Source: Aestuariivivens marinum (GTDB taxonomy: Bacteria; Bacteroidota; Bacteroidia; Flavobacteriales; Flavobacteriaceae). From it: 64,000 nucleotides of DNA. The stretch is from assembly GCF_022662175.1 (NCBI RefSeq), contig NZ_JAKMCR010000002.1:310001-374000 (forward strand). The letters are read 5' to 3'. Numbering within the stretch: the first letter of the stretch is position 1; every line of letters starts with the position of its first letter. A program made the translations under genes and the position numbers. This document shows, piece after piece, positions 49,487-61,349 of this stretch. A model generated the notes under the pieces. That model did not search any database and was not told where the DNA came from. It saw only the letters and a program-made list of their open reading frames with translations.

Positions 49487-51520
49487 TTAAGGTGTCTTAC
49501 TCAACAAGGCTTGAAACCTTGGTTCATCTTTTAAAGAGTGAAATTTAATATCCTGCGCTAATCCCCAAAAGAAAAGTCCTTGACCACCAACTTCATAATC
49601 TTTTTCCAACCAGTTTAAGGCGTTATCAACATCGCCTAAACCCATATAAATCGTTGCAATCATATATGGAGGCACATACGTTAATTCATTCTTATTCAAT
49701 TGGTATTCCAATATTTTTTGAGCCTTTTCGGTTTCTCCTATCATACCATAGCAATAACCCAGCATCCAATTGGTATGGGATGCCACACTACGTGAGGTGT
49801 AAAGTTGTATCGCCTCATCATATTTACCCAAAGCAGAAAGGTTTGAGGCTTTCATCCAAATTAACATATTGTCGTTTGGAAATCGCTTTAGGGATTCGTC
49901 CATTAAGTTGACAGCCTTTTGGTATTCTCCTAAATAATAATAAGTCTGCGCCATATCTCCTATATACTTCGTCGATAAGGGATCCAATTTTAGCACCTTA
50001 TTAAAGTTTTCTTCCATTAACTCCAAATTACCTTCGAAAGTGTATATCCAAGCTAATTTGTTATAGGCTCCCACATAACTAGGGTTTATTTCAATAGCTT
50101 TTTTTAAGTAAAGTAGAGCGGTTTCTTTTTCATATTTGTAATAGCTAATAGCTCCTAAAGCTCCAAAAGTACCACCGTCGTTAGAGTTAATGGCCAATGC
50201 TTTTAAAGCTGGTGTTGAGGCCAATTCCACCATTTTTTTTGGTGATTCCCTTCCCCAAAAAATATATTCCAAATAGGTTTCTGCTACACCAACATAGGCC
50301 CTACAGAACTGTGGATCTATATCTATTGCCTTTTTAAATAAGTCTTCCGCTTTTTTCAATTCCTCAACTTTACCGCCCCCTCTATGTAAAAATTTTTGAG
50401 CCTCCTTAAAAACGGCATATGCTTCAGGATTATTTGTTGGTTCGTTATTTAAACGCAACTGCTCTGTATCACTCAATGTTATTTTTAACGCATTGGCTAT
50501 ATCTCTGGAAACGTCACTCTGAATTTTAAATATCTGAACCAAGGTATTATCATAATTTTCAGCCCATAAGTTTTTGTTACTGGAAGCATCGACCAAATTA
50601 GCATTAATACGTACCTGGTTTCGATCTACCCTTACACTGCCTTCCAATATATAATTAACCCCTAATTCCTTGGCTATATCCTTAAGCGGTTTATCTGTAT
50701 CCTTATAATGCATTGCCGAAGCCCTTGAAATTACTTGAATGTGCTGAATTTTAGATAAATGTGTTATTAAATCCTCTGTTATACCATCGGCAAAGCTATC
50801 CGATTCATTATCATTATTCATATCATTAAAAGGAAGCACTGCCAATGTTGGTTCCTTTAACTCGTATACCGCACCCCTATTCATAATAAAATAGGTAAGC
50901 ACCAAAATGGTTAACGATAAAACACCAAGGGCATAAAGGCTTTTTTTTCGGTAGTTTTTATAAATTTCATCATCTTTGGGTTTCGTTTTTCCTTCAAGTT
51001 TATTTTTATCTGGAACAACCAGATTGTTATTGGTCACTGCGAAAATAGGAATAACCTTATTGACATTCTTAAAATCGACAGCATCAATAAATTGAGTAGA
51101 AATGTCTTTTTGATTTCTAATTTGGTCATTTACCCTGTCTGAAATCAAAATACTTCCAGGAACAGCTAAAGACTCTATTCTTGAGGCAATATTAACCGCA
51201 TCTCCAATTATGTCCGACTCCGTTCTAATGATATCTCCAACGTGAACCCCAATCCTAACAGGTATAGCGGGTGCTTCCTGAAAGGCTTTCTGCATTTCAA
51301 TACCACATTTAATGGCTTCAACAGAGCTTCTAAAGGTACTTAAAGCACCATCACCATAATATTGAATGAGCTCTCCATTATAGCGTGCGGTAACATTATT
51401 GAATATCTCTCGGTGCTTCTTTCTTATAAGTATGGCCTCTTCCTCATCGTTTTGCATTAAGGACGTATAACCTTCTATATCAGTAAACATAATTGCAACG
51501 AGTTGTCTGTGCTGTGACAT
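49487..51520 (-). CDS. Membrane class III nucleotide cyclase with TolB-like and TPR domains
   Basis: A 677-residue protein. The N-terminal cyclase domain (1 to about 165) holds metal ligands Asp14 (FTDIEGYTS) and Asp57 (YYGDGALSTF), and the transition-state Asn110 and Arg114 (GDAVNIASRIE), so catalysis is plausible. The adenine-selecting Lys is replaced by Gln53, while Asp107 is kept. A membrane helix (about 195-213) is followed by a TolB/FlgO-like domain (about 222-350, TLAVLPFNDM) and TPRs to the end. The product could be cAMP or cGMP. It diverges, with a 121-base gap, from a regulator with a cyclic-nucleotide-binding domain, a likely target. Confidence 0.9.
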   Translation of the reverse strand: MSQHRQLVAIMFTDIEGYTSLMQNDEEEAILIRKKHREIFNNVTARYNGELIQYYGDGALSTFRSSVEAIKCGIEMQKAFQEAPAIPVRIGVHVGDIIRTESDIIGDAVNIASRIESLAVPGSILISDRVNDQIRNQKDISTQFIDAVDFKNVNKVIPIFAVTNNNLVVPDKNKLEGKTKPKDDEIYKNYRKKSLYALGVLSLTILVLTYFIMNRGAVYELKEPTLAVLPFNDMNNDNESDSFADGITEDLITHLSKIQHIQVISRASAMHYKDTDKPLKDIAKELGVNYILEGSVRVDRNQVRINANLVDASSNKNLWAENYDNTLVQIFKIQSDVSRDIANALKITLSDTEQLRLNNEPTNNPEAYAVFKEAQKFLHRGGGKVEELKKAEDLFKKAIDIDPQFCRAYVGVAETYLEYIFWGRESPKKMVELASTPALKALAINSNDGGTFGALGAISYYKYEKETALLYLKKAIEINPSYVGAYNKLAWIYTFEGNLELMEENFNKVLKLDPLSTKYIGDMAQTYYYLGEYQKAVNLMDESLKRFPNDNMLIWMKASNLSALGKYDEAIQLYTSRSVASHTNWMLGYCYGMIGETEKAQKILEYQLNKNELTYVPPYMIATIYMGLGDVDNALNWLEKDYEVGGQGLFFWGLAQDIKFHSLKDEPRFQALLSKTP

Positions 51521-51641: not shown

Positions 51642-53486
51642 ATGTCCAATACAGTAACTAAAGAGCTTATAGAATTTCTTTCTTCAATTCCATTTTTTTC
51701 TGAAGTATCCGAAACGGCTTTACAAAAGCTTAGTGAAAACATTTCTGAAGAAACCTATATTAAAAACGAAAGTATTTTTAAAAAAGGCGATGAAGGGCAT
51801 GCTATGTATGCTATTCGTTCTGGTGCCGTTAAAGTCCATGATAAAGGCCATATATACGACACCTTTACATCGGGTCATTGCTTTGGTGAATATGCCTTGA
51901 TAGATAATGATCCCCGTTCGGCATCTATAACTGCTATTGAAAAAACTAAGGTCTTAAAAATTGAACGGGAACATTTTTTGGATTTAATGAAAAGTGATAG
52001 TGGTTTTTCACAAGGTATTTTGGCGGTTATGATTAAACGGCATAGGGAATTGGACACCATTCAAGAACGCTTGGCAACCTCTAAACTGGCTATAGAACTA
52101 GCCAACAGTAAAATGAACGGACTAATAAACGGAGCCATGGATGCCATCATTATGTTCGACAGTGACTTTAAGATTGTTCTTACCAATGCATCAGCTAACA
52201 AACTCCTTGAGAATAACGATGCACTGCACCGTAACATTCTGTTTTTTTTAGCTGATGAAAGCGCCGGTTTAATTGAAGGTATTGTAAAATCTGAAGCCTC
52301 TAAGGGACTAACCAACAAATACCTGCCCAGCTATATAAAAGTAATTGGTTCTAGTGAAACGGAAACTTTAAATGAAGGTACCATAAGTAAATATGGTAAT
52401 GAAGACAACACCTACTTTACCCTTATTTTAAGAAACATTGAAGACCGTTTAATTGCTGAAGAGACCATATCCTTACTAACCAATAAAACACAATATTTAG
52501 AGGAAGAGATTCAGGAATTGACCAATAGTTATGGTATCATTGCTGAAGACCAAAGTATGAAGTCTGTTTTAAACCTCATACATCAAGTAGCAAAAACAGA
52601 TGCCACGGTTTTAATACAAGGTGAAACGGGTACCGGAAAGGAATTAGTGGCAAGAGCAATCCATAAAGAAAGCAATAGAAATGATAAACCTCTTATACGG
52701 ATTAACTGTGGCGCCATACCAACCAATCTTATTGAAAGTGAATTGTTTGGCCATGAAAAAGGAGCTTTTACTGGGGCTACAGCAAGCCGAAAGGGACGAT
52801 TTTTATTAGCCGACAAAGGCACGATTTTTTTGGATGAGATTGGTGAGTTGCCTTTGGAACTGCAACCTAAGTTACTTAGGGTCATTCAAGAAGGTGAATT
52901 CGACCCCATAGGAAGTTCGGAAACCATCAAAGTAGATGTTAGGATTATTACAGCCACCCATAGGGACTTGTTGGAATTTTCAAAATCTGGAAAATTTAGA
53001 GAAGATCTTTACTACCGTTTAAATGTATTCCCAATTGAAGTCCCCGCCCTAAACAAAAGAGGCAACGATATTGTGCTTATTGCACAAGAAATGATTGATC
53101 GGTTTTCAAAAAAATTAAATAAACCAACTATTCATTTAAATGATACAGATGCTTCATACTTAAAGTCATACCATTGGCCAGGTAATGTACGGGAACTTCA
53201 AAATCTCATTGAACGTGCTGTTATTATATCTAATAATGGTTCTATTAATTGGCAATCAATAATTCCCAATCAGCAACCTAATGTGCAAGTAATAAACGAA
53301 GTGAAGCAAAACCGAATTCTCACCTCAAAGGAGCTGACTGCTTTAGAAAAGGAAAATATTCTAAAGGCTTTAAAACAAACCCGATGGAAAATATCGGGCA
53401 AATTTGGTGCTGCGGAGCTATTACAAATTCCTCCTACAACCCTTGCCTCAAAGATGAAAGTTTTAGGCATTGAAAGACCCATATAA
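51642..53486 (+). CDS. Sigma-54 activator with a cyclic-nucleotide-binding domain and PAS domain
   Basis: A 614-residue enhancer-binding protein. Residues 1 to about 130 form a CRP-like cyclic-nucleotide domain whose phosphate-binding cassette is intact (FGEYALIDNDPRSAS, with Glu83, Arg92 and Ser93). A PAS-like segment follows (about 165-275). The AAA+ domain has Walker A GETGTGKE (327-334), the sigma-54 contact loop GAFTGA (374-379) and WPGNVREL. A Fis-type helix-turn-helix ends the protein. It should turn on RNA polymerase-sigma-54 promoters when a cyclic nucleotide binds. This combination is uncommon. It diverges from a class III cyclase gene. Confidence 0.93.
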   Translation: MSNTVTKELIEFLSSIPFFSEVSETALQKLSENISEETYIKNESIFKKGDEGHAMYAIRSGAVKVHDKGHIYDTFTSGHCFGEYALIDNDPRSASITAIEKTKVLKIEREHFLDLMKSDSGFSQGILAVMIKRHRELDTIQERLATSKLAIELANSKMNGLINGAMDAIIMFDSDFKIVLTNASANKLLENNDALHRNILFFLADESAGLIEGIVKSEASKGLTNKYLPSYIKVIGSSETETLNEGTISKYGNEDNTYFTLILRNIEDRLIAEETISLLTNKTQYLEEEIQELTNSYGIIAEDQSMKSVLNLIHQVAKTDATVLIQGETGTGKELVARAIHKESNRNDKPLIRINCGAIPTNLIESELFGHEKGAFTGATASRKGRFLLADKGTIFLDEIGELPLELQPKLLRVIQEGEFDPIGSSETIKVDVRIITATHRDLLEFSKSGKFREDLYYRLNVFPIEVPALNKRGNDIVLIAQEMIDRFSKKLNKPTIHLNDTDASYLKSYHWPGNVRELQNLIERAVIISNNGSINWQSIIPNQQPNVQVINEVKQNRILTSKELTALEKENILKALKQTRWKISGKFGAAELLQIPPTTLASKMKVLGIERPI

Positions 53487-54645: not shown

Positions 54646-54696
54646 ACGATATTTCGTTAATATCTTACGATTTATCGTTAATTTATGATTCTTCGT
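54646..54696. promoter_or_regulatory. Three tandem ACGA-N4-TCGT palindromes upstream of the OsmC gene
   Basis: ACGATATTTCGT (54646-54657), ACGATTTATCGT (54667-54678) and ATGATTCTTCGT (54685-54696) are spaced 21 and 18 bases apart, close to two helical turns. They end 128 bases before the OsmC start. Confidence 0.55.
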
Positions 54697-54748: not shown

Positions 54749-54790
54749 AAATGTTTGGCATAGCGTATGCGTTTTCATTGTCAAACATTT
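54749..54790 (+). promoter_or_regulatory. Nested inverted repeats in the OsmC leader
   Basis: AAATGTTTG (54749-54757) pairs with CAAACATTT (54782-54790), enclosing a smaller palindrome, GCATA-GCG-TATGC (54758-54770). It lies about 35 bases before the start codon and could fold in the mRNA or bind a regulator. Confidence 0.4.
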
Positions 54791-54824: not shown

Positions 54825-55379
54825 ATGATTACAACAGCAAATGTAAAAAACGGAGTAAACGTAGATCAATTAGTAGAAACTATTGGAGCCGTCCAACAAA
54901 ACCCAGAATTAGCCAAATTTGAATTCAGAGCCAAAAACAACTGGATAGATGGAGGTCATTGCGTATCAAGCATTAAAAGTTTTTATGGTGTAGGTCAGGA
55001 AGACACGTCCCGTGAAGAAGCTTTCACTATGGAATGTAGTCACCCCAACGTATTATTAGGGCAAAACGAAGCCGCTACTCCTCCTGAAGTTGTATTACAC
55101 GCTTTAGCTTCTTGTTTAACTGGAGCCATGGTTTATCACGCCGCTGCACATGGTATTAACATTGAAGGTGCCGAATCAAGCATTGACGGTGGTATAGATT
55201 TACAAGGCTTTTTAGGATTAAAAGCAGAAGTTCGAAAAGGTTTTGATGGCATAAAGTTTAAATTAAAAGTTAAATCTGATGCCACAGCAGAGCAACTTGA
55301 AAATTTAGCCAAATTCTCTCCGGTATTCGACATGATTACCAACCCTACCCCTGTTTCAATTGAAATTGAAAAAGCTTAA
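54825..55379 (+). CDS. OsmC family protein
   Basis: A 184-residue member of the OsmC/Ohr family, thiol-dependent proteins that reduce organic peroxides or bind small molecules. The central helix with the reactive Cys is LHALASCLTGAMVYHAA. Other cysteines are in GGHCVSS and TMECSHP. The domain is preceded by an N-terminal extension of about 30 residues. It is probably a cytoplasmic peroxidase. Three tandem palindromes and a structured leader precede it, and a terminator separates it from the PFOR-like gene. Confidence 0.9.
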   Translation: MITTANVKNGVNVDQLVETIGAVQQNPELAKFEFRAKNNWIDGGHCVSSIKSFYGVGQEDTSREEAFTMECSHPNVLLGQNEAATPPEVVLHALASCLTGAMVYHAAAHGINIEGAESSIDGGIDLQGFLGLKAEVRKGFDGIKFKLKVKSDATAEQLENLAKFSPVFDMITNPTPVSIEIEKA

Positions 55380-55475: not shown

Positions 55476-58400
55476 ATGAAAGCTTCTTTCCATAGTATTT
55501 TAAACGCCAATCAAGCAGTAGCACGAATAGCTTACCAAACTAATGAGGTATTTCCTATCTATCCTATCACTCCTGCCTCTGAAATAAGTGAATTGGTTGA
55601 AGCATGGTCTGCCCAAAAACTCACCAATTGTTTTGGTAATGTTCCATCGGTGTTTCAAATGCAAAGCGAAGCAGGTGTCGCTGGAGCCATGCATGGCGCT
55701 TTACAAACCGGATCGTTGTCATCAACATTTACAGCGTCTCAAGGACTCCTTTTAATGTTACCCAACATGTACAAAATAGCAGGTGAATTAACCCCTAACG
55801 TAATTCATGTGGCCACAAGAAGTGTTGCCACGCATGCCTTGTCCGTTTTTGGTGATCACAGCGACATTATGGCTGTTCGACAATCAGGTTATGCTATGCT
55901 AGGAAGTGCTTCGGTACAGGAAGCCCAAGATTTTGCGTTGATAGCCAAAACGGCATCATTGGAATCAAGAATACCATTTGTACATTTTTTTGATGGCTTT
56001 AGAACCTCACATGAAATTGCCAAAATAGAAACCATCTCTAATGATGTTATTAAATCTATGATGAGTTCAAAAGCAATCGAATCGCATAAGGCCAGAGCAT
56101 TAAATCCTAATAACCCTGTTATTAGGGGCACGGCCCAAGGTCCTGATGTATTTTTTCAAAGTAGGGAGAGCATAAATTCTTTTTATAATGCCTGCCCGAA
56201 TATTGTTCAAAAACACATGGATGCTTTTGCCTTAAAAACTAACCGACACTACAAGTTATTTGAATACGTAGGAGATCCCAAAGCAGAGCAAATCATTGTT
56301 GCCATGGCTTCATCAACTGAAACCATTGAAACTACCATAAAACACCTTAATCAGCAGGGTAACAAATTCGGGTTAATAAAGGTTCGTTTATTTAGGCCGT
56401 TTAGTATGGAGCATCTGCTGCAAGCCCTTCCTAAAACCACTAAATCCATTGCCGTTTTAGACCGTACTAAAGAACCGGGAAGTACTGGGGAGCCCTTGTA
56501 CCTCGATGTGTTAAAATCCATTACCGAGGCATATCAAAATGACTTAATACACTCGTTTCCAAAAATTTTTGGCGGACGCTATGGCTTATCTTCAAAAGAA
56601 TTTAACCCTGTAATGGTTCAAGCTGTTTTTGATAACTTAAAAAAAGATAAACCTAAAAACAATTTTACTGTTGGCATTCATGATGATGTTACAAAACTAA
56701 GCCTGGAATACAATAATACACCTCTTTTTAATGACAACACATACCAAGCCATTTTTTATCAAGAAAAAAATGATTCTAACAACAAAAGCTTTGCAAATAC
56801 TATAAAACTATTAGGTAAAAACAGCTATATACAAGGCTATACCCAAATAAGTTACAAGAAATCCAACGCTTATGATATTGCTCATTTGCGACTCAGTAAA
56901 ACCAAAATAAAAGCACCTTATCTTATTGATGAGGCTGATTTTTTAGCATGCCACAATATTAACCTTAGAGAAAATGGTTCCATCATAAAAAATATAAAAG
57001 CCAAAGGAATACTTTTAGTTAATACCTCTTTGCAAACAGATATGTTTTGGCAATCACTTTCTTGTAAAACACAACAGTACATTATAAACAAACAAATTGA
57101 TTTACGCATTGTAGATCTTACTAAACTTAACAATATCATTCCTTTAAAGAATATTAATATTAACGCATTACACGCTTGCTTTTTATCCATTAAAAATGAA
57201 AACGTTGATAATGATGAAAAAAACACTTTATTCTTAGACGACTTTATTAATAAGGTCAACATTTCAACTCCTTTCAAGGAAGAAAAAACAGTTCCATTTA
57301 GCGATGATTTCTACAATACCTTACTTGGAAAGATGCTATCAAACAAAGGTGATGAAATTTCCGTAAGCTCATTACCAGTTGATGGCACCTATCCTACCAA
57401 TACATCAGTCTTCAATACGCCTCAAAACAGTTCATTTTTCCCAAAATGGAATACCGATTTATGCACCCAATGTGGGGCATGCAGCATGGCTTGTCCGCAA
57501 GCGGCATTACGCATTAAAGTATATGATGATTCGTACTTAGAAAGTTCGCCAAGAGCCATGAAGTATATGGCATCCAATGATTTCGACTTAAAGAACTATA
57601 CCATACAAATCAATCCAGACCAATGTAATGGTTGTAATAATTGTATTGATGCTTGTCCAGCAAAAGCTTTAAAAGCGACTCACAAAGAGCCCAATCTTAC
57701 TAAAGAGCAGATAAATTGGAATTATTTTGAAAGCATCCCTGAGTTCGATAGAAATAAAATAGATGTAACAAAAATAAGTCAGCAACAATTACAAGAACCT
57801 TTATTTAAATATGCCACAGGTATTAAAGGTTGCGGCGAAGCACCATATCTAAAATTAATGTCCCAGCTTTTTGGCAACAGATTGCTTATAGCAAATGCTA
57901 CTGGCGCCAGTTCTATATTTGGAGGTGCATTGCCAACAACGCCTTGGTCTAAAAATAGCAAAGGACAAGGGCCGGCTTGGTCCAACTCATTATTTGAGGA
58001 TAATGCCGAATTTGGTTTAGGATTTAGAATGTCTATCAACCAGCAAGAACAACAAGCCAAAACATTATTAAAGGATTTGGCAACAGAACTTCCTTTTAAT
58101 TTGGTCTATGACATTTTAAATGCAGAACAAACTGATGAAATTGGTATCAATGAACAACGCCAAAGGATAACATCCTTAAAAACCATATTGAAAAACATTG
58201 ACTCTGAAGATTCAGAAAAGCTTTTAAAGCTAGCAGATAGTTTCATTAAAAAAAGTGTATGGATTGTTGGTGGTGATGGCTGGGCTTATGATATAGGATA
58301 TGGCGGATTAGATCATGTATTGGCTTCTGGTGAAAATGTGAATATTTTAGTTCTAGACAATGAAGTTTACGATAACACAGGTGGCCAAGCTTCCAAAGCT

Positions 58401-58961
58401 ACTCCTTTTGGTGCCCAAGCAAAATTTGACTTCAATGGTAAAACCAAACAGAAAAAGGATCTTGGACTTTTGGCAATGAATTACAATGATGTTTATGTCG
58501 CTTCTGTAGCCATAGGTGCCGACCAAGAGCAAACCTTAAAAGCATTTAACGAGGCCGAGAACTTTAATGGGCCATCGATAATAATAGCTTATTGCCATAG
58601 CGATTCACATGGCATAGATATGACAAAACCTTATCAATACCACAAAGCAGCTGTAAATTCTGGACAATGGTTGTTATACAGACATGATCCTAGAAAAACA
58701 AAAGCCTTACAGCTAGATTCGAATGAACCTTCAATTAAAATCGAAGATTATTTGAAATTAGAAGGTCGCTTTAAAAAACTGTTCAAGAAAAACAAGGAAG
58801 CTTTAATACCTTGGCTAAGACAGTATCAAAAGGTAATTGATAAAAGATTTGATAATTATTTGATGCGTTCATCTTCAACTTTTATAAACCGATCTAAGAT
58901 TATTTCTAACAATAGAATTTTTAAAAGCTTAAAACCAGTAACACGTCATCATATTAATTAA
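55476..58961 (+). CDS. Pyruvate:ferredoxin oxidoreductase homologue lacking the proximal Fe-S cluster ligands
   Basis: A 1161-residue single-chain enzyme homologous to NifJ/PFOR. The N-terminal domain keeps the 2-oxoacid site (FPIYPITPASEISEL, ATRSVATHALSVFGDHSDIM). The two-cluster ferredoxin domain is intact (CTQCGACSMACP and CNGCNNCIDACP). The thiamine-binding block GGDGWAYDIGYGGLDHVLA is intact. However, three of the four ligands of the proximal 4Fe-4S cluster are gone: CxxC has become Ile783/Cys786, the Cys of NATGCSS is Ala811, and the Cys of the C-terminal HC motif is Ser1042, with a new Cys1040. The gamma domain also lacks the usual GTVGANK motif. Electron transfer from thiamine must therefore differ, or the enzyme may have a new role. 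It is not a pseudogene. Confidence 0.9.
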   Translation: MKASFHSILNANQAVARIAYQTNEVFPIYPITPASEISELVEAWSAQKLTNCFGNVPSVFQMQSEAGVAGAMHGALQTGSLSSTFTASQGLLLMLPNMYKIAGELTPNVIHVATRSVATHALSVFGDHSDIMAVRQSGYAMLGSASVQEAQDFALIAKTASLESRIPFVHFFDGFRTSHEIAKIETISNDVIKSMMSSKAIESHKARALNPNNPVIRGTAQGPDVFFQSRESINSFYNACPNIVQKHMDAFALKTNRHYKLFEYVGDPKAEQIIVAMASSTETIETTIKHLNQQGNKFGLIKVRLFRPFSMEHLLQALPKTTKSIAVLDRTKEPGSTGEPLYLDVLKSITEAYQNDLIHSFPKIFGGRYGLSSKEFNPVMVQAVFDNLKKDKPKNNFTVGIHDDVTKLSLEYNNTPLFNDNTYQAIFYQEKNDSNNKSFANTIKLLGKNSYIQGYTQISYKKSNAYDIAHLRLSKTKIKAPYLIDEADFLACHNINLRENGSIIKNIKAKGILLVNTSLQTDMFWQSLSCKTQQYIINKQIDLRIVDLTKLNNIIPLKNININALHACFLSIKNENVDNDEKNTLFLDDFINKVNISTPFKEEKTVPFSDDFYNTLLGKMLSNKGDEISVSSLPVDGTYPTNTSVFNTPQNSSFFPKWNTDLCTQCGACSMACPQAALRIKVYDDSYLESSPRAMKYMASNDFDLKNYTIQINPDQCNGCNNCIDACPAKALKATHKEPNLTKEQINWNYFESIPEFDRNKIDVTKISQQQLQEPLFKYATGIKGCGEAPYLKLMSQLFGNRLLIANATGASSIFGGALPTTPWSKNSKGQGPAWSNSLFEDNAEFGLGFRMSINQQEQQAKTLLKDLATELPFNLVYDILNAEQTDEIGINEQRQRITSLKTILKNIDSEDSEKLLKLADSFIKKSVWIVGGDGWAYDIGYGGLDHVLASGENVNILVLDNEVYDNTGGQASKATPFGAQAKFDFNGKTKQKKDLGLLAMNYNDVYVASVAIGADQEQTLKAFNEAENFNGPSIIIAYCHSDSHGIDMTKPYQYHKAAVNSGQWLLYRHDPRKTKALQLDSNEPSIKIEDYLKLEGRFKKLFKKNKEALIPWLRQYQKVIDKRFDNYLMRSSSTFINRSKIISNNRIFKSLKPVTRHHIN

Positions 58962-59208: not shown

Positions 59209-60240
59209 ATGGAAATACTTAAGCCTTATAAGAGAATAGTAAAACGCATATTGATGTATTTTGTTGCGCTATTGAGCTTAGCTTTCATTTTTATGCTCTA
59301 TTGTTTTGATGCTTTACCCAAAAATTTATTCAAATCTAAATTTGCCCCTTCAAAATTATATTATATGAATTATGACATATCCCAATTAAACAACTCAAAA
59401 GACAACGAGTTGCTAAAATATGGATACGAACTGTTCTTAAATACCCCAAAATACATTGGCCCTGATAATGGTGATCCAAAAATGATATATCAAGGTAACC
59501 GATTGGCATGTAAAAACTGTCATTTAGACTTAGGCACCAAGCCTTACTCTGCTCCCTTAATAGGAATCATACAACGATTTCCACAATACAGGGGTAGGGA
59601 AAATAAAATAGGTACCATCGAAGAACGTATTAACGGTTGCATGGAACGTAGTATGAATGGAAAAATGTTACCAGAAGAAAGCAAAGAAATGCAAGCAATA
59701 GTGACTTATCTTGATTGGTTAAGTCGATATGCACCAAAAGATGGCAAAATTAAGGGCACTGGGTTTTTAAAAATTGAAATCCCAAACAGGGCTGTAGATT
59801 TAAACCATGGTGAAACTGTTTTTATTAAGCACTGTGTTGTCTGCCATGGTGAAGATGGCCAAGGCATTATGTCCTCTAATGGTTACACTTATGAGTATCC
59901 TCCTTTATGGGGAGCTAACTCCTTTAATCACGGAGCCGGTATGACCCGAGTTATTACGGCAGCCCAATTTATTAAAGGGAACATGCCATTTGGAACGACT
60001 TACGACACTCCTGTGTTAACCGATGAAGAAGCTTATGATGTAGCAGGTTATATAAATTCACAGGACCGCCCAAAGAAATCAAATCCAGAGAAAGATTTTC
60101 CCGACCTTAAGAAAAAACCTGTATCTACACCTTACCCGCCTTATGCAGATAACTTTTCGGTTGAACAACATCAAAAAGGACCTTTTCAACCTATTATAAA
60201 ATATTATAAGGAAAAATTTAACATCACTAAAACCAAGTAA
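59209..60240 (+). CDS. tsdA: Dihaem cytochrome c, thiosulfate dehydrogenase TsdA type
   Basis: A 343-residue periplasmic protein held by an N-terminal helix (about 12-32). It has two haem sites, CKNCH (101-105) and CVVCH (209-213). Between them, EERINGCMERSMNG contains Cys144, at the position of the Cys that ligates haem 1 in TsdA of Allochromatium. NMPFG (Met259) and Lys256 are candidate distal ligands of haem 2. The surrounding sequence (LACKNCHLDLGTKPYSAPL, FPQYRGRE) matches TsdA closely. TsdA oxidises two thiosulfates to tetrathionate or does the reverse. It precedes two exported DsrE-like genes by 2 and 695 bases. Confidence 0.88.
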   Translation: MEILKPYKRIVKRILMYFVALLSLAFIFMLYCFDALPKNLFKSKFAPSKLYYMNYDISQLNNSKDNELLKYGYELFLNTPKYIGPDNGDPKMIYQGNRLACKNCHLDLGTKPYSAPLIGIIQRFPQYRGRENKIGTIEERINGCMERSMNGKMLPEESKEMQAIVTYLDWLSRYAPKDGKIKGTGFLKIEIPNRAVDLNHGETVFIKHCVVCHGEDGQGIMSSNGYTYEYPPLWGANSFNHGAGMTRVITAAQFIKGNMPFGTTYDTPVLTDEEAYDVAGYINSQDRPKKSNPEKDFPDLKKKPVSTPYPPYADNFSVEQHQKGPFQPIIKYYKEKFNITKTK

Positions 60241-60242
60241 TT

Positions 60243-60920
60243 ATGAAAACAATGAACGACAATTCAAGAAGACGGTTTCTAGGTGCTTTGGCACTTGGGG
60301 CAACTGCAAGTACCATCTCTGTACTTTCAAACCCAATGTATGCCAACACGTCTATTTTTACCGACAAAAAAATGAATGAAACAGAAGATTGGTTCGATAA
60401 GATTAAAGGGACCCACCGTATTGTTTATGATGGTTCTACACCTCACATGGGGCTTCCTGTGTTGTGGAACTGGGCATTTTACCTGTCCAACAACTCAACG
60501 GGCTCACCTGATAGCGATATTACCGCTATGACCGTCATACGTCATACCGGATTATGCCTAGCATTTAAGGATGAACTATGGGCAAAATATAAGATGGGTG
60601 AATTCTTTGGTGTAAAAGATCATACTGGAGACTTCGCAGTGCGTAATCCATTTTACGAACCACAAGATGGCGATTACCCTATAAACGGACCTGGAGGCAT
60701 AAAAAGTCTTAACGAGAGGGGCGCCATGTTCTGCGCATGCGATTTAGCCACTAAAGTATATAGCAATAAAGTCGCTGAGAAAATGGGAATGAATCCAGAA
60801 GAAGTTTACGAAGAATGGGTAAATGGTATGCTGGATGAAGTGAAATTGGTGCCATCGGGTGTATGGGCACTAGCTAGAGCACAGGCTCGAGGCTGTGGCT
60901 ATGTTTTTGCTGGCGAATAA
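60243..60920 (+). CDS. Tat-exported protein of probable DsrE-like fold
   Basis: A 225-residue protein with a twin-arginine signal (NSRRRFLGALALGA). The mature part resembles DsrE-type proteins: a HRIVYDGSTPHMGLPVLWNW opening, AMTVIRHTGLCLAF with Cys105, the MFCACDLATKV block (Cys164, Cys166) and the VPSGVWALARAQARGCGY ending. It follows tsdA by 2 bases and precedes a second exported DsrE gene by 15 bases. It may carry sulfur in the periplasm. Export through Tat suggests it folds, or binds a cofactor, before export. The family assignment is an inference from pattern. Confidence 0.72.
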   Translation: MKTMNDNSRRRFLGALALGATASTISVLSNPMYANTSIFTDKKMNETEDWFDKIKGTHRIVYDGSTPHMGLPVLWNWAFYLSNNSTGSPDSDITAMTVIRHTGLCLAFKDELWAKYKMGEFFGVKDHTGDFAVRNPFYEPQDGDYPINGPGGIKSLNERGAMFCACDLATKVYSNKVAEKMGMNPEEVYEEWVNGMLDEVKLVPSGVWALARAQARGCGYVFAGE

Positions 60921-60935
60921 TATAAATACAAGATT

Positions 60936-61349
60936 ATGAAACGTCTATTAAATACTGTGTTTGTATTACTATTTTCCACAATAGTCTTTGCACAGGAAAA
61001 ACCCGTAAAAATTGTATTCGATGTAACTAGCAGCAATACCAAAGTCCATGAATCGACTATTAGACATGTAAAGGCCATGTCTAACGCTTATCCAGATTCC
61101 AAGTTTGAAGTCGTTATGTATAGTGGCGCTATGGATATGGTTTTAAAGAATAAATCTGTAGTAGCAGACGATTTGGAAATGCTAGCCAAAAAAGACAATA
61201 TCGATTTTGTTATCTGTGAAGGCACCATGAAACGCCATAATGTTGATTCAACGCAATTAATAACTGGCGTTAGAAGCGTTCCTGATGGCATTTTAGAAAT
61301 AATTGAAAAGCAAAAAGAAGGTTGGGGCTATATTAAAGAAAGTCAATAG
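60936..61349 (+). CDS. Exported DsrE family protein
   Basis: A 137-residue protein with a Sec signal peptide (ending VFAQ). The DsrE-like domain has the conserved Cys94 in FVICEGTMKRH and the family ending VPDGILEIIEKQKEGWGYIKE. DsrE-type proteins relay sulfane sulfur; this exported branch is common in Bacteroidota and Proteobacteria. It is last of the tsdA set and is followed by a strong terminator. Confidence 0.87.
   Translation: MKRLLNTVFVLLFSTIVFAQEKPVKIVFDVTSSNTKVHESTIRHVKAMSNAYPDSKFEVVMYSGAMDMVLKNKSVVADDLEMLAKKDNIDFVICEGTMKRHNVDSTQLITGVRSVPDGILEIIEKQKEGWGYIKESQ

Follow-up and report, generated by a model that had tools for sequence, protein, structure and literature searches.

A clade of pyruvate:ferredoxin oxidoreductase-like proteins in Flavobacteriaceae lacking three proximal-cluster cysteines and the CoA glycine motif

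The locus and the proteins compared

The DNA analysed here, called the window, is a stretch of 64,000 nucleotides from contig NZ_JAKMCR010000002.1 (positions 310,001 to 374,000) of Aestuariivivens marinum, a member of the Flavobacteriaceae whose genome comprises 3.2 Mb in 13 contigs. It contains a gene for a protein resembling pyruvate:ferredoxin oxidoreductase (PFOR), the subject of this study. The gene belongs to a conserved unit made up of a sigma-54 activator gene, palindromes and a -24/-12 promoter, an OsmC-like gene and the PFOR-like gene itself. Coordinates are those of the window.

55476..58961, + strand: PFOR-like protein, open reading frame of 1161 aa, lacking three of the four proximal-cluster ligands as well as the coenzyme A (CoA) motif

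An earlier note on this DNA, made from the sequence alone, had described an intact reading frame, and the open reading frame is indeed full-length with no internal stop. With 1365.7 bits, the protein exceeds the cut-off (911.35) of the PFOR equivalog model TIGR02176. Its closest solved relatives by sequence are the PFORs of Moorella thermoacetica (6cin) and Desulfovibrio africanus (1b0p), with which it shares the single chain, the domain order, the thiamine- and pyruvate-binding residues and the eight ferredoxin cysteines. It differs from them in having only one of the four proximal ligands, in lacking the CoA glycine motif and in having Asn instead of Thr at the Mg position. Elsewhere, beyond what the earlier note could see, the same genome encodes another PFOR (1176 aa) in which the four proximal cysteines are all present.

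Relatives were drawn from 60 related genomes, from contigs of species-level genomes (the best 80 of a longer set of matches) and from 397 Flavobacteriaceae genomes. The resulting protein alignment has 128 distinct rows (142 before duplicate removal), which were split by the absence or presence of Cys at the position of D. africanus Cys840 into 50 variant and 78 canonical proteins. Rows L067, L071 and L096 were dropped as coming from the same genomes as L045, L040 and L043, and row L046 as having no long PFOR frame. A smaller alignment, A1, holds 39 rows, 18 of them variants; L076 and seven canonical rows were omitted from it. All 39 members of A1 match TIGR02176, the comparison with the cut-off having been made for the window protein.

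Loss of the proximal-cluster ligands

The query was aligned to the D. africanus PFOR chain and the numbering was checked. The four cysteines that bind the proximal cluster in that enzyme, Cys812, Cys815, Cys840 and Cys1071, align with the following codons:

57822..57824, + strand: I783 (Cys812); V38/D4/E4/I3/S1 in 50 variants, Cys in 78/78 canonical proteins
57831..57833, + strand: C786 (Cys815), the sole proximal cysteine kept; Cys in 50/50 variants and 78/78 canonical proteins
57906..57908, + strand: A811 (Cys840); A41/S9 in 50 variants, the column defining both sets
58599..58601, + strand: S1042 (Cys1071); Ser in 48/50 variants, gap in the two others, both of which end early

This agrees with the replacement of three cysteines claimed in the earlier note, and extends it to the whole clade, since none of the 50 distinct variants keeps any of the three. 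In the canonical set, chosen by Cys840, the other three positions (812, 815 and 1071) are likewise Cys in all 78 proteins. The note had allowed that neighbouring residues might supply the ligands, or that ordinary four-cysteine PFORs might carry the same replacements. Neither was observed: no substitute ligand cysteine was found in domain VI, where C786 is the only cysteine common to all 50 variants, and the Ile/Ala/Ser pattern is absent from the four-cysteine PFORs, that of the A. marinum genome among them. The new Cys1040 that the note had pointed out is present in the query, but the position varies more than expected of a ligand (Cys in 38 of the 50 variants, Ser in 9, Thr in 2 and a gap in 1).

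Conservation of the thiamine, ferredoxin and CoA domains

Three further features of the protein are relevant here:

57462..57656, + strand: ferredoxin domain with cluster cysteines 663, 666, 669, 673, 717, 720, 723 and 727; all eight are Cys in 50/50 variants
58359..58361, + strand: N962, presumed Mg-ligand position (Thr991 in D. africanus); Asn in 49/50 variants (1 gap), Thr in 78/78 canonical proteins
56691..57290 (limits approximate), + strand: eroded domain III, which in canonical PFOR is the CoA domain; of 45 positions invariant in the canonical proteins the variants keep 6

The equivalents of T31, E64, R114, D963 and N996, which we take to bind thiamine pyrophosphate (TPP), Mg and pyruvate, are retained by every variant that reaches the respective column. 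The earlier statement that the thiamine and pyruvate residues and the cysteines of both ferredoxin clusters are intact thus applies to the variants in general. As for the exchange at N962, Asn also occupies the equivalent Mg-ligand position in the Sulfolobus enzyme, according to an excerpt of PMC5020499.

Conservation was counted over positions invariant in at least 77 of the 78 canonical proteins, a position being regarded as kept if it was unchanged in at least 45 of the 50 variants; the domain limits are approximate. By this count domains I and II of the variants keep 72 of 80 and 35 of 38 positions, the thiamine-binding domain VI keeps 87 of 104 and the ferredoxin domain 11 of 19. Domains I, II, V and VI are, by mean pairwise identity, at least as similar among the variants as among the canonical proteins, while in domain III the mean is 0.377 in variants versus 0.612 in canonical proteins. 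The glycine motif of domain III, searched for with a strict regular expression, occurs in 0/50 variants and 64/78 canonical proteins, so that its absence, remarked on earlier for the window protein, is common to the clade. The erosion of domain III and the loss of the proximal ligands, set beside the retention of the thiamine residues, indicate that the CoA site and the proximal cluster were lost together while the thiamine site stayed. Taken as a whole, the alignment makes it very probable that these proteins keep the thiamine/2-oxoacid half of PFOR and the ferredoxin cysteines, and have lost the proximal ligands and the CoA site.

A structure predicted from the 39-row alignment had a mean pLDDT (predicted local distance difference test) of 74.6, with values below 50 in loops (115-131, 808-822 and 965-992) to which parts of the active site belong. 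In a Foldseek search with this model PFOR was the best match, with a whole-chain template modelling score of 0.48-0.50 and a root mean square deviation of about 31, which is too poor for judging the pocket or distances.

Distribution and selection

A search for homologues sharing the cysteine loss, as the earlier note had proposed, yielded the 50 distinct variants, all from Flavobacteriaceae; Flavivirga algicola, Algibacter marinivivus and Hyunsoonleella aestuarii are among the carriers. On a FastTree phylogeny they form one side of a branch with a local Shimodaira-Hasegawa-like support of 100; the most divergent ones, L205 and L167, have long branches and their placement is unsure. The sequence of L072 is cut by the end of its contig, and L167 (1033 aa) is without part of the C-terminus. 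Among the best 80 matches, beyond which there are more, no variant came from another family, every locus that is not flavobacterial being of the four-cysteine type.

Among the 397 sampled Flavobacteriaceae genomes the variant is present in 39, the residues having been inspected in each. An ordinary PFOR accompanies it in four of them (G000, G243, G220 and G180), none appeared in 34, and the remaining one (G174) has a second match outside those listed. The ratio of nonsynonymous to synonymous substitution rates (dN/dS) was 0.12 and 0.11 in two pairs of other variants, the window gene being saturated at synonymous sites relative to L041; these ratios indicate that the variant clade is under purifying selection. 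The query matches short, stop-containing pieces of PFOR sequence at 37-55% identity at L046 (G008:C3, about 181090-181724), the remains of a decayed PFOR-type gene.

The OsmC partner and sigma-54 control

The rest of the conserved unit lies directly upstream of the PFOR-like gene:

51642..53486, + strand: sigma-54 activator with cNMP-binding, AAA+ sigma-54 interaction and Fis-type helix-turn-helix domains (domain matches)
54647..54677, + strand: CGA-N4-TCG palindrome in two copies, presumably bound by the activator; it occurs nowhere else in the window
54755..54770, + strand: sigma-54 type -24/-12 promoter TTGGCATAGCGTATGC; the strict pattern has a single occurrence in the window, counting both strands
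54825..55379, + strand: OsmC-like partner of 184 aa with invariant C46 and C97 (PF02566, 47.4 bits, cut-off 27.5)

Gene order was assessed in 40 distinct loci with wide stretches of sequence, L171 being excluded as a repeat of L069. The OsmC gene lies upstream of the variant and in the same direction in 38 of the 40, usually at a distance of 60-124 bases; wider gaps of 178-283 bases occur in L042, L065, L076 and L178, and in L072 the gap is 888 bases with another open reading frame in between. An ortholog of this OsmC (at least 67% identity) was detected in 41 of the 397 family genomes, among which are all 39 that carry the variant (Fisher p 5e-52, a value that overstates independence because the sampled genomes are related). 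Within L001-L137 no canonical locus contains this OsmC, which matched only at variant loci, and among 395 sampled genomes of the phylum proteins more than 60% identical to it occur only in its own genome and in G180.

Proteins of the OsmC/Ohr group usually have a pair of active-site cysteines. In the partner protein the usual position of the second cysteine is occupied by Ser (in an SPV motif, as judged by eye), and C97 and C46 are both invariant in 50 distinct orthologs. Ten OsmC paralogues keep C97, and nine of them have Asn at position 46. One paralogous OsmC gene, at L212 (7082-10142), adjoins a gene for a pyridoxal phosphate-dependent enzyme of Cys/Met metabolism and a nitronate-monooxygenase-like gene; L213 appears similar by eye.

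The activator gene is found upstream of OsmC, mostly by about 2 kb, in 38 of the 40 loci, the other two being L064, which has none, and L044, whose sequence starts too close to the OsmC gene to show it. The strict -24/-12 pattern precedes OsmC in 32 of the 40 loci against 0.04 expected, and near matches were recognised by eye in seven of the other eight. The eighth is L064, from Arenibacter algicola, where activator, promoter and palindromes are all missing together. The 40 upstream regions contain 74 copies of the palindrome against 1.28 expected, both expected numbers having been obtained by first-order Markov resampling. The gene rpoN is present in the genome. The second OsmC paralogue of this genome, at L206 (8854-11494), is transcribed divergently from a sigma-54 activator of its own, with a -24/-12-like site, so that OsmC under sigma-54 control may be a wider theme.

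Comparison with known enzymes

In ordinary PFOR the proximal cluster accepts the first electron from the thiamine intermediate, and CoA speeds the transfer of the second and accepts the acetyl group. As an excerpt of PMC5020499 reports (citing Yan 2014), the 2-oxoacid:ferredoxin oxidoreductase OFOR1 of Sulfolobus tokodaii, whose sole cluster was removed by mutation, still decarboxylates pyruvate without cluster and CoA. On that account, the mutant and the variant both lack a proximal-type cluster, but the former is a two-subunit laboratory construct with no ferredoxin domain, whereas the latter is natural, clade-wide and has kept its ferredoxin domain. The same source, as excerpted, describes oxalate oxidoreductase (5c4i) as a CoA-independent member of the family, and CoA independence, suggested here by the state of domain III, would be the feature that it shares with the variant.

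Two other chains with a homologous TPP domain were considered, KorB of this genome and IorA-like proteins of the phylum. KorB keeps proximal-type cysteines, as judged by eye. The motifs CxGC and IGC and a late Cys, which by motif make up the proximal set, are present in the IorA-like proteins of 11 of the 12 loci fetched, the twelfth having been read in the wrong frame. These proteins fall below the cut-off of TIGR03336 (best score 525.4 versus 650.9 bits). IorA proper has a ferredoxin domain, whereas the KorB and IorA-like chains have none while keeping the proximal cysteines, so that the variant clade shows the opposite loss; among the relatives examined, the thiamine-adjacent cluster is the one retained when others are lost. 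The idea that proximal loss is already ordinary in indolepyruvate-type oxidoreductases was rejected, as the IorA-like ones read keep their cysteines. No description of a PFOR without the proximal cluster, or of a pairing with OsmC, was recognised among the top-ranked papers in searches of the open-licence literature of PubMed Central, some of the searches being too broad to be informative.

Possible reactions of the variant

The three proximal cysteines and the CoA motif, two defining features of PFOR, were tested for and are absent, so that the protein should not be assigned the function of a PFOR. Its passing of the equivalog cut-off raises an annotation issue: the chemistry is probably different from that given by automatic annotation. 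The variant may share the first half-reaction of PFOR, the retained residues suggesting that binding of pyruvate or a near 2-oxoacid and its decarboxylation on thiamine persist. The earlier proposal of a different chemistry or of non-CoA products is the direction best supported by the clade-wide loss of ligands and CoA motif.

We tentatively favour a functional descendant of PFOR that works as a CoA-independent thiamine enzyme and discharges the pyruvate-derived intermediate mostly non-oxidatively. Pyruvate or a close 2-oxoacid would be decarboxylated to hydroxyethyl-TPP, which would mostly leave by release of acetaldehyde or by carboligation; the ferredoxin clusters might serve structure, regulation or a slow side path, and acetyl-CoA would no longer be made by this protein. 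We put non-oxidative discharge first because neither the first electron relay nor CoA is in place, as in the cluster-less Sulfolobus case cited above.

Several observations weigh against this reading. All eight ferredoxin cysteines are kept in 50/50 variants, which is hard to explain without passage of electrons. The decarboxylase side activity of Pyrococcus PFOR requires CoA, according to an excerpt of PMC4030962. No gene using acetaldehyde or acetolactate is a constant neighbour among the gene clusters of the loci, which are partly annotated. Linker domain IV keeps only 6 of 11 invariant positions (identity 0.456 in variants versus 0.589 in canonical proteins), so that relaxation is not limited to the CoA domain. 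Finally, two genomes of the same genus (L203, 7200-10165, and L204, 9135-12193) retain the activator, OsmC and the TsdA, TetH-like and DsrE-like genes described below while the PFOR-like gene is absent; the activator, OsmC and the sulfur genes can therefore do without it.

The main rival is a CoA-independent oxidative decarboxylation, which we regard as possible but rather doubtful. Hydroxyethyl-TPP would be oxidised, and the product would react with water to give acetate or be taken up by a thiol, the electrons travelling from TPP to the medial cluster, directly or after a domain movement, and leaving through the ferredoxin domain. The conserved ferredoxin cysteines are its strongest argument; loss of the CoA domain could in addition admit water to the site, and oxalate oxidoreductase, as excerpted in PMC5020499, shows that an enzyme of the 2-oxoacid:ferredoxin oxidoreductase family can be independent of CoA. 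The path from TPP to the medial cluster is, however, now without a relay, and a larger electron gap between thiamine and the ferredoxin clusters, as proposed in the earlier note, is plausible. The KorB and IorA-like proteins read, moreover, keep their proximal-type cysteines.

It is unlikely that the emptied pocket binds another cofactor or metal through C786, S1042 and residue 1040. C786 is invariant, as is S1042 in the 48 variants that reach it, and this is all the positive evidence found for the other cofactor that the earlier note had suggested; position 783 varies among V, D, E, I and S, position 811 between A and S and position 1040 among C, S and T, and no new domain VI cysteine is conserved in all variants. 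A role of OsmC as acceptor seems similarly improbable. In that scheme hydroxyethyl-TPP would hand an acetyl group, two electrons or both to the C46/C97 pair of OsmC, which would stand in for CoA and the proximal cluster and might be likened to the lipoyl domain of pyruvate dehydrogenase; if true, sigma-54 would here control a 2-oxoacid dehydrogenase system of a new kind.

It is more improbable still that the protein is a paralogue with no catalytic activity, whether a decaying copy or a pseudo-enzyme acting, for instance, as a scaffold. Identity to a genome of the same genus is 67.6% for the PFOR-like protein versus 95.1% for OsmC and 84.4% for the activator, the gene is absent at L203 and L204, and L167 has a truncated C-terminus; against this stand the long open frames, the invariant catalytic residues and the low dN/dS of the two variant pairs. 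An ordinary PFOR with its proximal cluster rebuilt by other residues would fit the TIGR02176 score but is hardly credible, as candidate cysteines are lacking and the CoA motif is lost too.

With its outer two clusters kept and its proximal ligands and CoA site gone, the clade offers a natural experiment on the roles of electron transfer and CoA in directing the hydroxyethyl-thiamine intermediate.

Other neighbouring genes

Four further genes flank the unit in the window:

49487..51520, - strand: class III nucleotide cyclase with tetratricopeptide repeats, divergent from the activator gene (domain matches)
59209..60240, + strand: TsdA/SoxA-type cytochrome c, optional neighbour, 8/40 loci
60243..60920, + strand: TetH-like protein, optional neighbour
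60936..61349, + strand: DsrE-like protein, optional neighbour, 8/40 loci

The cyclase is a possible source of the cyclic nucleotide for the activator. Of 23 loci, 20 have repeat/cyclase proteins of the same BLAST cluster close to the unit; two proteins of that cluster were scanned.

Of the genes from which the earlier note suggested a redox or sulfur context, OsmC is a constant neighbour, whereas TsdA and the DsrE-like protein are not, and the sulfur context applies to a minority of loci. TsdA, TetH and DsrE were rejected as a general key to function, being present in 8 of the 40 loci; the 40 include L072, which ends inside the PFOR-like gene and is uninformative on this point. The match of the TetH-like protein is weak (29.1 bits, cut-off 300), and its N-terminus appears by eye to be a Tat-type start.

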